Origin: Deltaproteobacteria bacterium
Lineage (GTDB): Bacteria > UBA10199 > SPLOWO2-01-44-7
Assembly (NCBI GenBank): GCA_016213065.1
Contig: JACRBV010000148.1
Location: 1 to 36,716, forward strand
Length of the DNA stretch: 36,716 bases
Direction of reading: 5' to 3'
The notes beneath the pieces are model-generated. The model was not told the origin of the DNA. It searched no databases and was given only the letters and a program-made list of their open reading frames with translations. A program made the position numbers and the translations under genes. Shown here one piece after another: positions 3,251-24,267 of the stretch; the stretch's first letter is position 1; every line of letters begins with the position of its first letter.

Positions 3251-3338
3251 AAGGACAATGGACAATGGACAATGGACTAAAAAGTATTTGGTCCCTTGTC
3301 CATGGTCCGTGGTCCATAGTCCATAGTCCATAGTCCGT
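3251..3338. repeat. Palindromic heptamer array upstream of mqnA
   Basis: The left arm is AAGGACA, ATGGACA, ATGGACA, ATGGACT (3251-3278) and the right arm is TGTCCAT, GGTCCGT, GGTCCAT, AGTCCAT, AGTCCAT, AGTCCGT (3297-3338), each in unbroken 7-nt phase. The arms are complementary, so the array can fold into a long hairpin. It begins 6 nt from the mqnA start codon and so supplies the mqnA leader. Confidence 0.85.
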
Positions 3339-5585: not shown

Positions 5586-7895
5586 ATGGACTCTGATAAA
5601 AAACCGATTGTTGAACAACGCATCAAACCGACGGTCATTCGCAGGCGGGCCAAGGAAGAGCCGGTAGCGAAGCCGCCTGTTCCTGTGAAAGCGGAAGCTC
5701 TATCACAACCGTCAAAACCAGAAAAACCCGCCGCGCCGGTGTTTATTGAAACAGAGGTCGCCCCTCCCATTATTCATTTGACCGCAAAAGAAAAGGAAGA
5801 GAAGGCGAAGAAAGCGGCCAAGAAAAAGAAATCAAAAGCGGAACTCGAACTGGAAGATATTCAACGCGCCGGTGGATTAAAACAATTCGCTCAACAAACT
5901 TTGGGAAGTGAAGAAGAGACGGAACCTGCCGAAAAAACTTTTGCGCCCTCAGTTGAGCGCGTCTTTGAACCGACCCATGTTGGAAGCGGTCGTCGTAAAA
6001 AACCGATTCGCCGTGAATTCAAGCAGACCCAAATTACCGAAACAAATGTAGCTAAGAAGGTGATTCGCATTCAAAATGCCATCACCATTTCAGAACTTTC
6101 CCAGTCAATGGGAATCAAATCGTCCGAGTTGATCAAAAAATTGATGGGGTTGGGAATGATGGCAACCACCAACCAAAATCTGGATGTCGATACCGCTACT
6201 CTGCTTGCCACCGATTATGGATTTGAGGTTCTGCACACCGCGTTCAAGGAAGAAGAGGTTTTGAAAGCCACGGCAAAAGAAACGGAAGATACGGATATGC
6301 AATGGCGTGCACCGGTTGTTACCGTGATGGGGCATGTTGACCATGGCAAAACTTCTCTGCTGGATGCAATTCGCAAAACCAAAGTCACGGAAAAAGAAGC
6401 GGGCGGAATCACGCAACACATCGGCGCTTATGAAGTGACGGTTGCGGAAACGCAACCGTCATCCCGAGGTCCAAAGGACCGAGGGATCTCCGAGGAGATC
6501 CTTCGCTCTGCTCAGGATGATCGTGCGATTTATCGCACGATCACATTTATTGATACACCCGGCCATCAAGCCTTTACGCAGATGCGCGCGCGTGGAGCGC
6601 AGGTCACCGATATTGTGGTGCTCGTTGTGGCGGCCGATGACGGCTTGATGCCGCAAACCATTGAAGCCATCAATCACGCCAAGGCGGCCAATGTTTCCAT
6701 CATCGTGGCGATTAATAAAATCGACAAACCTCAGGCCGATCCGGAAAAAGTAAAACGTCAACTAACTGAACACGGTTTGGTGGCGGAAGATTGGGGTGGA
6801 GATATTGTTTGCGTTCCCACCTCTGCAAAAACGGGACAGGGTTTGGATCATTTGCTCGAAATGATTTTGTTGACCGCCGAAGTAAAAGAACTGAAAGCCA
6901 ATGTCAGCGGAAGAGCGAAGGGCGTTGTGATTGAAGCGCGGTTGGATAAAGGACGCGGCCCTGTGGCTACAGCCTTGATTCAATCGGGGATATTAAATGT
7001 GGGAGATTTTGTGGTGGCGGGTCTCACCTACGGACGCGCGCGTGCCATGTTGCAGGCGGATGGTTCTTCTGTTGAAAAAGCGGGTCCTTCCAAACCGGTG
7101 GGACTCATCGGTTTGAATGCGGTGCCGGAAGCGGGAGAAGAATTGTTTGTGGTGGAAGACGAACGAGACGCCAAACGCATTGTTGAAACACGCCAGGCAA
7201 AAAAACGTTCTTCTGAATTATCGAAATCAGCCAAATTTTCACTTGAATCTTTGCAGGAACAAATTTCCAAAGGCGAAACGCACGAACTTCCCTTGGTTAT
7301 CAAGGGAGACGTCGCGGGTTCGGTGGAAGCTCTCACCGAAGCACTGACCGGCATGAGCAATAATCAGGTCACCGTGAAGACGCTTCACTCGGGCATTGGC
7401 GGCATTACAGAAAACGATGTCATGTTGGCCCGCGCTTCCAGAGCGGTTATTATTGGTTTCAACGTGGCGCCCGAAGGAAAGGCGAGGGCGTTGGCAGAAC
7501 AGGAAGGCATTGAAATCCGTCTTCACAACATCATTTACGAAGTGATGGATGACATCAAAAACGCGATGGAAGGATTGCTTGCACCTAAAATCACCGAGAA
7601 ATTTTTGGGACGTGCCAATGTCAAACAGGTTTTCAAAATTACCAAGGTCGGTACCATCGCCGGTTGCATGGTGAGCGACGGGATCATCCGCAGAAATTGT
7701 CAGCTCCGTCTCATCCGGGATGGCCAGATTATTTATCAGGGTAAACCCGCCTCTTTGAAACGCTTTAAAGACGATGCCCGCGAAGTCACTGCCGGCATGG
7801 ATTGCGGTATCGCGATTGAAAATTTCAACGACATCAAAGAAGGGGATGTTTTGGAAGCTTTCATTATGGAAGAAACGGCGCAAAAACTGCTATAG
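5586..7895 (+). CDS. infB: Translation initiation factor IF-2 with hairpin-rich insertion in the G domain
   Basis: GTPase that brings initiator fMet-tRNA to the 30S subunit. 769 residues: charged N-terminal region, IF2_N motif near residues 166-215, G1 GHVDHGKT near 249-256, [10 protein letters not shown] switch I region, G3 DTPGH near 323-327, G4 NKID, then domains II-IV. Between the AYEV strand (about residue 283) and ITFIDTPGH, where homologues have only a few residues, this protein has about 30 extra residues encoded by a train of perfect hairpins (6437-6542). The frame is kept, so the gene is probably functional. The TAG stop lies in the first unit of a heptamer array. No rbfA follows. 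Confidence 0.95.
6437..6542 (+). repeat. In-frame palindromic insertion within infB
   Basis: Four consecutive hairpins: GACGGTTGCG-GAAA-CGCAACCGTC (6437-6460, 10 bp), GGTCC-AAA-GGACC inside ATCCC/GGGAT (6461-6487), GATCTCC-GA-GGAGATC (6485-6500) and GATCGTGCGAT-TT-ATCGCACGATC (6519-6542, 11 bp). The middle part, TCATCC (6459) to GGATGA (6520), has the same ends as the intergenic family at 18834, 20140 and 24127. The insert reads as open protein in the infB frame. Confidence 0.85.
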
Positions 7896-8000
7896 ACCAT
7901 GGACCGCGGACAATGGACCATAGACCAAAAAACAAAAAAGGTAGTAAGTCCCTTGTCCATAGTCCATGGTCCGTGGTCCATGGTCCGCTTTCCACGGTCC
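7892..8000. repeat. Palindromic heptamer array at the infB-nrnA junction
   Basis: The left arm is ATAGACC, ATGGACC, GCGGACA, ATGGACC, ATAGACC (7892-7926), then an A-rich spacer; the right arm is TGTCCAT, AGTCCAT, GGTCCGT, GGTCCAT, GGTCCGC, TTTCCAC, GGTCC (7954-8000). The first unit contains the infB TAG, and the candidate nrnA starts (ATG 7913, GTG 7973) lie in the arms. Homologous nrnA coding sequence begins only at about 8000. Confidence 0.85.
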
Positions 8001-13192: not shown

Positions 13193-13306
<114 letters not shown>

Positions 13307-15166: not shown

Positions 15167-16093
15167 ATGCCACTGGAACCCTTTGACCAAGAAGAAACGA
15201 TTTATAAAAAGATTCGGCCCTATATTGTCGTTTCTCTGCTGGTCCATCTTTTGCTCCTTCTTTTATTTGAGAAAATTCCCGAGTCTGTGACTCTTCCCAC
15301 TCCGGGAAAAGAAGCCCCGATTTGGGTCGATTTAAAACAGCAGAAATACCAAATTGCGGATATCGACAAACCGGCGGAGGAAAAACGTCCCGACAAAAGT
15401 CAATTTTTGGGAATGTATGACAGCGCTGTTCCCGAAGAACAAGTCGCGGCAAAGCAGGGGAGGGACAGGACAATGGACCATGGACAACGGACCATGGAAC
15501 AAAAATCAAAAATCAAAAATCAAAAATCAAAAACGAAGAACGAAGAACAAAGAACAAAGAACGAAAAACCAAGAACCAAGAACCAAGAACCAAGAACAAA
15601 GACCCAAGAACCGCCTCTGAAAGATTTATACAAATTTGACAAAGAATCTTTTACAACTCCCGCACCGCAAAAGAGCGCGCCCAAAACAATGGCGAGTGGA
15701 AGTCCGTCGTCTGCTTTGCCCGATGATTTCTATCCCGATTACAAAAAAGGAAGTCGCACTTATCTGAATGTGCTTCGCTATCCCGACATCCAATATTTCG
15801 TGTTGTTGAAACGGGTTTTCAAAACGACCTTTGATCCGATCGGCGCTTTGCGCGCGGCCTTTACCAATAATCAAATTACACGCGGTTCCGTCGAAACGGT
15901 TTTGGGTGTGACGCTCGATGCGAAAGGAAATTTGGCAGAACTTTTCGTTTTCAAAAGCTCAGGCATCAGTGAATACGACCAAGAAACCCTGCGCACCATC
16001 CGCGCCTCCGCTCCCTTCTCAACTCCCCCCCAAAAACTTCTAGACGCCGAAGGCGTCATCCGCATGAGCTGGACCTTTACGGTGTATCTGTAG
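15167..16093 (+). CDS. TonB-family energy transducer with heptamer-encoded linker
   Basis: 308 residues. One N-terminal membrane helix with the TonB-like histidine (SLLVHLLLLLLF, about residues 23-35), a periplasmic linker, and a C-terminal TonB-type domain (SVETVLGVTLDAKGNLAELFVFKSSGISEYDQETLRTI, about residues 240-280, ending in MSWTFTVYL). It would couple the inner-membrane proton gradient to outer-membrane transport; no ExbB/ExbD gene is in the window. Residues about 100-149 of the linker are encoded by 21 consecutive heptamers and are rich in Lys, Asn, Gln, Arg and Thr, replacing or extending the usual Pro/Lys-rich linker. It starts 9 nt after recO. Confidence 0.78.
   Translation: MPLEPFDQEETIYKKIRPYIVVSLLVHLLLLLLFEKIPESVTLPTPGKEAPIWVDLKQQKYQIADIDKPAEEKRPDKSQFLGMYDSAVPEEQVAAKQGRDRTMDHGQRTMEQKSKIKNQKSKTKNEEQRTKNEKPRTKNQEPRTKTQEPPLKDLYKFDKESFTTPAPQKSAPKTMASGSPSSALPDDFYPDYKKGSRTYLNVLRYPDIQYFVLLKRVFKTTFDPIGALRAAFTNNQITRGSVETVLGVTLDAKGNLAELFVFKSSGISEYDQETLRTIRASAPFSTPPQKLLDAEGVIRMSWTFTVYL
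15466..15612 (+). repeat. 21-unit heptamer array within the TonB-like gene
   Basis: Without one phase slip the units run CAGGACA, ATGGACC, ATGGACA, ACGGACC, ATGGAAC, then four AAAAATC, AAAAACG, AAGAACG, two AAGAACA, AAGAACG, AAAAACC, three AAGAACC, AAGAACA, AAGACCC and AAGAACC. Total 147 nt, exactly 49 codons. The first units belong to the ATGGACN type and the rest are A-rich, which links the two repeat types. Confidence 0.92.
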
Positions 16094-18833: not shown

Positions 18834-18982
18834 TTGTCATCCTGAACACATTCGCTTTGCTCAGGGTAAACTCCGTGAAGGATCTGCTTGATAACAAATT
18901 GGATTCTTCGCGGAGTTTACCCTGAGCCCGAGCAGATTCTTCGCTTCGCTCAGAATGACAAAGCGAAGGGCTCAGAATGACA
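18834..18982. repeat. Nested palindromic element between nadB and pgsA
   Basis: Outer ends TTGTCATCCTGA and TCAGAATGACA enclose a perfect 15-bp stem TCAGGGTAAACTCCG (18861-18875) with CGGAGTTTACCCTGA (18911-18925), plus TTCGCTTCGCTCAGAATGAC blocks. It belongs to the same family as the elements at 20140 and 24127 and to the core of the infB insertion. It fills most of the divergent nadB-pgsA region. Confidence 0.8.
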
Positions 18983-20110: not shown

Positions 20111-20239
20111 GGGAGTGGTGGAAAATGCGTTTTTCATGATTGTCATCCTGAACGCAATGAAGGATCTACTTGATAATATTGGATTCTTCGCTTCGCTCAG
20201 AATGACAATTTGAAAATTTCAGCATTTTCCACCACTCCC
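20111..20239. mobile_element. 129-bp MITE with 18-bp terminal inverted repeats
   Basis: The ends GGGAGTGGTGGAAAATGC (20111-20128) and GCATTTTCCACCACTCCC (20222-20239) are perfect inverted repeats, flanked by the direct repeat GTAAT (20106-20110 and 20240-20244), a target-site duplication. It encodes no protein. The ends match the left end of the IS at 30252, so that transposase or a relative could move it. A third palindrome (20140-20208) lies inside it. Confidence 0.85.
20140..20208. repeat. Palindromic element nested within the MITE
   Basis: TTGTCATCCTGA (20140-20151) pairs with TCAGAATGACAA (20197-20208) with one mismatch; the interior holds AGGATCTACTTG and GGATTCTTCGCTTCGCTCAG blocks shared with the elements at 18834 and 24127. 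Confidence 0.8.
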
Positions 20240-24126: not shown

Positions 24127-24267
24127 TGTCATCCTGAACCCTTCGCAATCATTGTCATTCTGAGCGAAGCGAAGAATCTGCTTGTGCTCAGGGTAAACTC
24201 CGTGAAGGATCTACTTGAGGATTCTTCGCTTCGCTCAGAATGACAAAGCGAAGGACTCAGCATGACA
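24127..24267. repeat. Doubly nested palindromic element upstream of tilS
   Basis: The outer arms TGTCATCCTGAACCCTTCGC and GCGAAGGACTCAGCATGACA pair with few mismatches. Inside lies a perfect 27-bp inverted repeat (24152-24178 with 24220-24246; ends TTGTCATTCTGAGC and GCTCAGAATGACAA). It fills the gap between the DUF151 gene and tilS and ends about 23 nt before the tilS start. Confidence 0.85.

Follow-up and report, generated by a model that had tools for sequence, protein, structure and literature searches.

An in-frame palindromic repeat in the GTPase domain of translation initiation factor IF-2, found at the same codon site in two phyla

So far, Rickettsia and some REP-rich bacteria have been the main source of known palindromic repeats inside coding sequences. 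The window analysed here, which is contig C148 (36,716 nt) of a deltaproteobacterium-like MAG (1.8 Mb, 155 contigs), holds an infB gene with a train of hairpins inside the GTPase domain of the encoded initiation factor IF-2.

Architecture of the insert and its repeat family

The infB ORF (5586-7895, forward strand) is open and encodes a full-length IF-2 of 769 aa (TIGR00487, E 8e-243). Four hairpins with stems of 11, 5, 8 and 12 bp lie within 6436-6543. The train is thus real, as the preliminary description had it, although each edge lies one base outside the 6437-6542 given there. Alignment to relatives delimits a stretch of 31 codons (6444-6536, forward strand; residues 287-317) that replaces a three-residue PKG turn, a net gain of 84 nt or 28 aa. 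The switch II motif DTPGH (6552-6566, forward strand) is intact, as are all other G motifs; the earlier description of an in-frame insert next to switch II stands.

The left flanking hairpin (6436-6461, forward strand) has a perfect 11-bp stem, identified by repeat search (arms 6436-6446/6451-6461), closed by a GAAA loop. The palindromic core (6459-6520, forward strand), also found by repeat search, is bounded by TCATCCCGAG (6459-6468) and CTCAGGATGA (6511-6520). It comprises a 5-bp stem read from the sequence, GGTCC/GGACC (arms 6468-6472/6476-6480), and the central hairpin GGATCTCC-GA-GGAGATCC (6484-6501, forward strand), whose perfect 8-bp stem (6484-6491/6494-6501) lies inside a longer pairing of 6477-6491 with 6494-6508 at 87%. 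The right flanking hairpin (6518-6543, forward strand) has a perfect 12-bp stem by repeat search (arms 6518-6529/6532-6543). The outer arms of both flanking hairpins, 6436-6446 (V-T-V-A) and 6532-6543 (Y-R-T-I-T), are IF-2's own codons, a point absent from the preliminary description. The core may be read as two inverted units, the first (6457-6487, forward strand) with a CGTC tag (6457-6460) followed by ATCCC-GA-GGTCC-AAA-GGACC-GA-GGGAT and the second (6498-6518, reverse strand) being ATCCT-GA-GC-AGA-GC-GA-AGGAT. The predicted minimum free energy of the insert region as RNA is -64.9 kcal/mol, versus a mean of -36.7 for shuffled sequences (z -7.7), and none of 200 shuffles folded as low.

The centre of the insert had been assigned to a TCATCC...GGATGA family, which the genome bears out: TCATYCYGAG has 161 matches and its reversed control one. 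Sampled copies are intergenic or at gene ends, many with paired convergent ends, and the IF-2 copy is the sole one clearly within a gene among the resident copies examined. The right half of its core is up to 96% identical over 27 nt to resident copies; few sites in the genome share its left half (TCATCCCGAG). An adjacent stem longer than 4 bp was found at only two of the 94 repeat ends examined, both in IF-2, and thus at none of the 92 other ends sampled in the genome. An Rfam search of the insert gave no match, tblastn of the insert peptide against eight carrier genomes, a search for which the peptide is too degenerate, returned IF-2 copies only, and a literature search with the repeat string matched only primers.

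Copies of the TCATTCTGAG/TCATCCTGAG repeat at 18837-18980, 20143-20205 and 24129-24265 of the window are ordinary and lie outside clear genes; some carry a 22-nt tandem tail and none has flanking hairpins. The window also harbours another family of repeats, built of 7-nt units, (GTCCATG/A/T)n, in arrays that mostly face each other as inverted pairs (3253-3336, 7894-7986, 13195-13306 and 15468-15499), one of them directly after the infB stop; GTCCATGGTCC with at most one mismatch has 30 matches versus 0.4 expected.

Recurrence at one codon site

In 28 IF-2 loci of the same class the insert is missing and the turn is short, mostly V-x-x-P-K-G-x-I/V-T-F, with 27-28 residues from GGITQ to DTPGH. 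Among the same-class loci compared this span is longer only in the window (55) and in G035 (51), a member of another family that carries an insert at the same site. The turn had been regarded as tight and conserved. Its strands and DTPGH are indeed conserved, but its length is not: empty homologues from relatives of a Gottesmanbacteria carrier, from Verrucomicrobia and from Acidobacteria run from 27 to 38 residues, and the turn is therefore less constrained than had been assumed.

At least 13 other genomes from two phyla, namely twelve Patescibacteria and G035, have a similar repeat at this position of IF-2; the preliminary description did not mention such inserts elsewhere. A pattern scan of GTDB r220 that tied the left end of the repeat to IF-2 codons found seven of them, six in Patescibacteria and one in the Deltaproteobacteria MAG L054 (identical with G035); six more (G224, G186, G401, G292, G197 and G345) came from relatives of one carrier and from a right-end scan of 380 Patescibacteria. 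The left-end scan of 379 Patescibacteria genomes yielded no further carrier because the left end has decayed in several of them, whereas the right-end pattern picked up six carriers in the Patescibacteria sample. Carriers are few: 2 of 46 genomes of the window's class have the insert and, in the sample of 379 Patescibacteria, about six do. Their cores range from 20 to 92 nt.

An IF-2 tree that leaves out the loop requires at least seven changes to explain the carriers, the count being uncertain within Patescibacteria, whose empty sites are under-sampled in parts. The window's IF-2 nests in an otherwise empty family and that of G035 next to an empty relative, each placement at 100/100. Since each nests among empties, infB was passed down with its lineage and was hit by insertion more than once; on this tree we reject the alternative that a filled gene moved between phyla. 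The recurrence came from a search directed at this infB codon.

The infB frame is stop-free in all 13 inserts scored, each a whole number of codons with a net gain of 16-42 aa. Of the two alternative frames, one is open in four of these inserts and the other in none; the insert of G345, outside the scored set, also reads through. Translation is thus probable and removal is not. An AlphaFold2 model keeps beta2 (fragment positions 46-51) and beta3 (84-89) in place and predicts the insert as an excursion of low to moderate confidence, possibly with a helix, which lends support to the earlier suggestion of a tolerated loop.

The flanking hairpins follow the host codons. Each of the 14 carriers has a right-hand TGAT...ATCA stem of 7-13 bp, in which the inner arm changes along with the coding sequence of the outer arm (CGC/GCG, CAC/GTG, TGC/GCA, AGA/TCT, and ACG/CGT versus AAA/TTT). 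When the right arms come from one genome they pair at 6.64 of 7 positions on average, versus 5.25 between genomes, and none of 100,000 permutations, which do not control for kinship, was as high. The right flank reads ATCAC in all eight carriers that were not selected for it, but in two sets of empty sites it does so in about 7 of 28 and 3 of 18 cases. On the left, the window, G035, L082 and L091 have a strong stem, which in the other carriers is weak or lost. That end hairpins are unique to IF-2 is a notion weakened by hairpins of the same type at some intergenic copies in Patescibacteria.

Origin of the insert and competing explanations

The account that we hold with good confidence is that a small, non-autonomous palindromic repeat of REP/RPE-like kind was inserted in frame into the beta2-beta3 turn and is tolerated as a surface loop, the flanking stems probably being hairpin-templated copies. 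The insertion, its frame, its return to one site and the covariation of the arms are observed, whereas translation, tolerance and the way in which the stems formed are inferred. In this account an inverted pair of tagged hairpin units, mobile or formerly mobile, entered the turn in frame; the mRNA would be read straight through and the protein would gain about 28 residues at its surface, leaving strands and G motifs undisturbed. The site probably recurs because the turn tolerates changes in length and because the GTGAC (V-T) and ATCAC (I-T) codons supply TGA and TCA, which pair with the TCATCC and GGATGA ends. The long flanking stems probably arose by hairpin-templated copying, either at insertion or later, through quasipalindrome correction or snap-back synthesis, the free inner arm being rewritten to match the constrained coding arm. 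Carrying the element is most likely neutral for the host or slightly disadvantageous.

The arms have a second possible origin, since end hairpins at intergenic Patescibacteria copies imply that they may be the element's own. The whole three-hairpin unit would then be mobile, joined to matching IF-2 codons by microhomology of its own ends (GTGAC... and ...AAAATCAC), with no copying of host DNA. Ends of the type TGATTTTGC...GCAAAATCA outside IF-2 in G096, G273, G224 and G043, and end hairpins such as TGACGC...GCGTCA at other intergenic copies, speak for this; the lack of any such hairpin at the 92 other ends in the window's genome, and arms in IF-2 that track local codon choice (e.g. AGA/TCT, CGC/GCG, CAC/GTG), speak for copying, so that we give the element-borne origin an appreciable but lesser chance. 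The covariation of arms over 14 carriers, the very stable RNA fold and the frame kept in every carrier would also be expected if the insert had been recruited, with mRNA hairpins or peptide regulating IF-2 synthesis or ribosome binding and pairing under selection. A left stem that is weak or lost in several carriers, the variable core length and the scarcity of carriers make this improbable.

Strong hairpins in an essential gene resemble the bypass elements of mitochondria and phage T4, and splicing or cleavage of the insert had been considered. An intron need not keep the reading frame, yet every carrier has an insert of whole codons with an open frame, 28 aa is far below intein size and Rfam holds no matching intron, so that removal from RNA or protein, or skipping by the ribosome, is very hard to credit. 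Still less credible is an assembly artefact, which had also been raised: the window comes from a single MAG in whose genome the repeat family is abundant, but the frame is kept, 13 other assemblies are filled at the same codon site and none of the other ends sampled in this genome has such flanking hairpins.

A bolder extension of the preferred account, which we regard as rather unlikely, would make the IF-2 beta2-beta3 codons a preferred landing site where insertion itself makes hairpin arms by copying the adjoining host DNA. Such mobility would be site-selective, would work by template switching and would have struck infB independently in different phyla.

Relation to known coding palindromes

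Rickettsia palindromic elements (RPE) are palindromic repeats in protein-coding genes (Ogata 2000; reviewed in PMC2229807), and an RPE-bearing guanylate kinase is produced and active in Rickettsia (PMC2229807). The present repeat resembles them in being short and palindromic, in adding tens of residues and in lying both between genes and in frame in conserved ones (IF-2, valS of G197 and many intergenic copies). It differs in host, RPE having been described in Rickettsia and the present repeat being found in a deltaproteobacterium-like MAG, in its classmate G035 and in Patescibacteria; the IF-2 inserts occur in other phyla, probably have another sequence, use one codon site repeatedly and have host-matched flanking hairpins.

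CGTC-tagged REPs, which include dRS3, RPE-4 and RPE-6, have a CGTC tag and a stem starting with AT, and inverted dimers predominate among them; intragenic dimers encode 20-30 aa and some dimers lie inside palindromes (PMC3733652). Their definition requires an unpaired CGTC (or TGTC, CCTC) tag, a stem of 8-9 bp, a loop of 4-5 nt and a CCA tail, and no dedicated transposase is linked to them (PMC3733652). The IF-2 insert likewise has stems beginning with complementary AT (ATCCC/GGGAT, ATCCT/AGGAT) and two inverted units. CGTC precedes the stem of its left unit, where it is also paired in the flanking stem, and the right unit has GATC. The unit consists of 5 bp, GA/GA and 5 bp with an AAA loop and a CTC tail, and a separate hairpin flanks the insert on each side, unlike in these REPs. 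In Nematomorpha mitochondria, coding palindromes are perfect inverted repeats (PMC6649704). They share with the present case perfect inverted repeats in genes with arms encoding conserved protein, but there both arms do so and a repeat-family core is lacking. In behaviour the insert resembles an RPE and in appearance a CGTC-type REP dimer, and we file it as a member of neither, because its stem departs from the REP definition and RPE are defined by host and sequence.

What is new is the repeated use of one codon site together with host-matched hairpins. An essential GTPase has here received inserts at a single codon site several times over in distant phyla, relatives with an empty site are available, and the stems covary with host codons; both the insertion of such an element and the origin of host-matched hairpins thus become directly testable by comparing filled and empty alleles.

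Some further repeats were seen in other genomes. A valS-like ORF (L249; G197:C2, around 42224) has two stretches where a repeat of this type, in the opposite orientation, seems to have been inserted in frame, and a 703-aa membrane protein-like ORF (L183; G042:C15) likewise has two apparent in-frame repeat insertions. A uvrA-like ORF (L190; G044:C16, around 45154) contains a 9-bp hairpin followed in frame by TCATCCCGAGCGCAGGCGAGGGAT, possibly half a repeat. At L164, L184, L178 and L235 (G043, Staskawiczbacteria) the end hairpin of the repeat adjoins CATG, apparently right before start codons.
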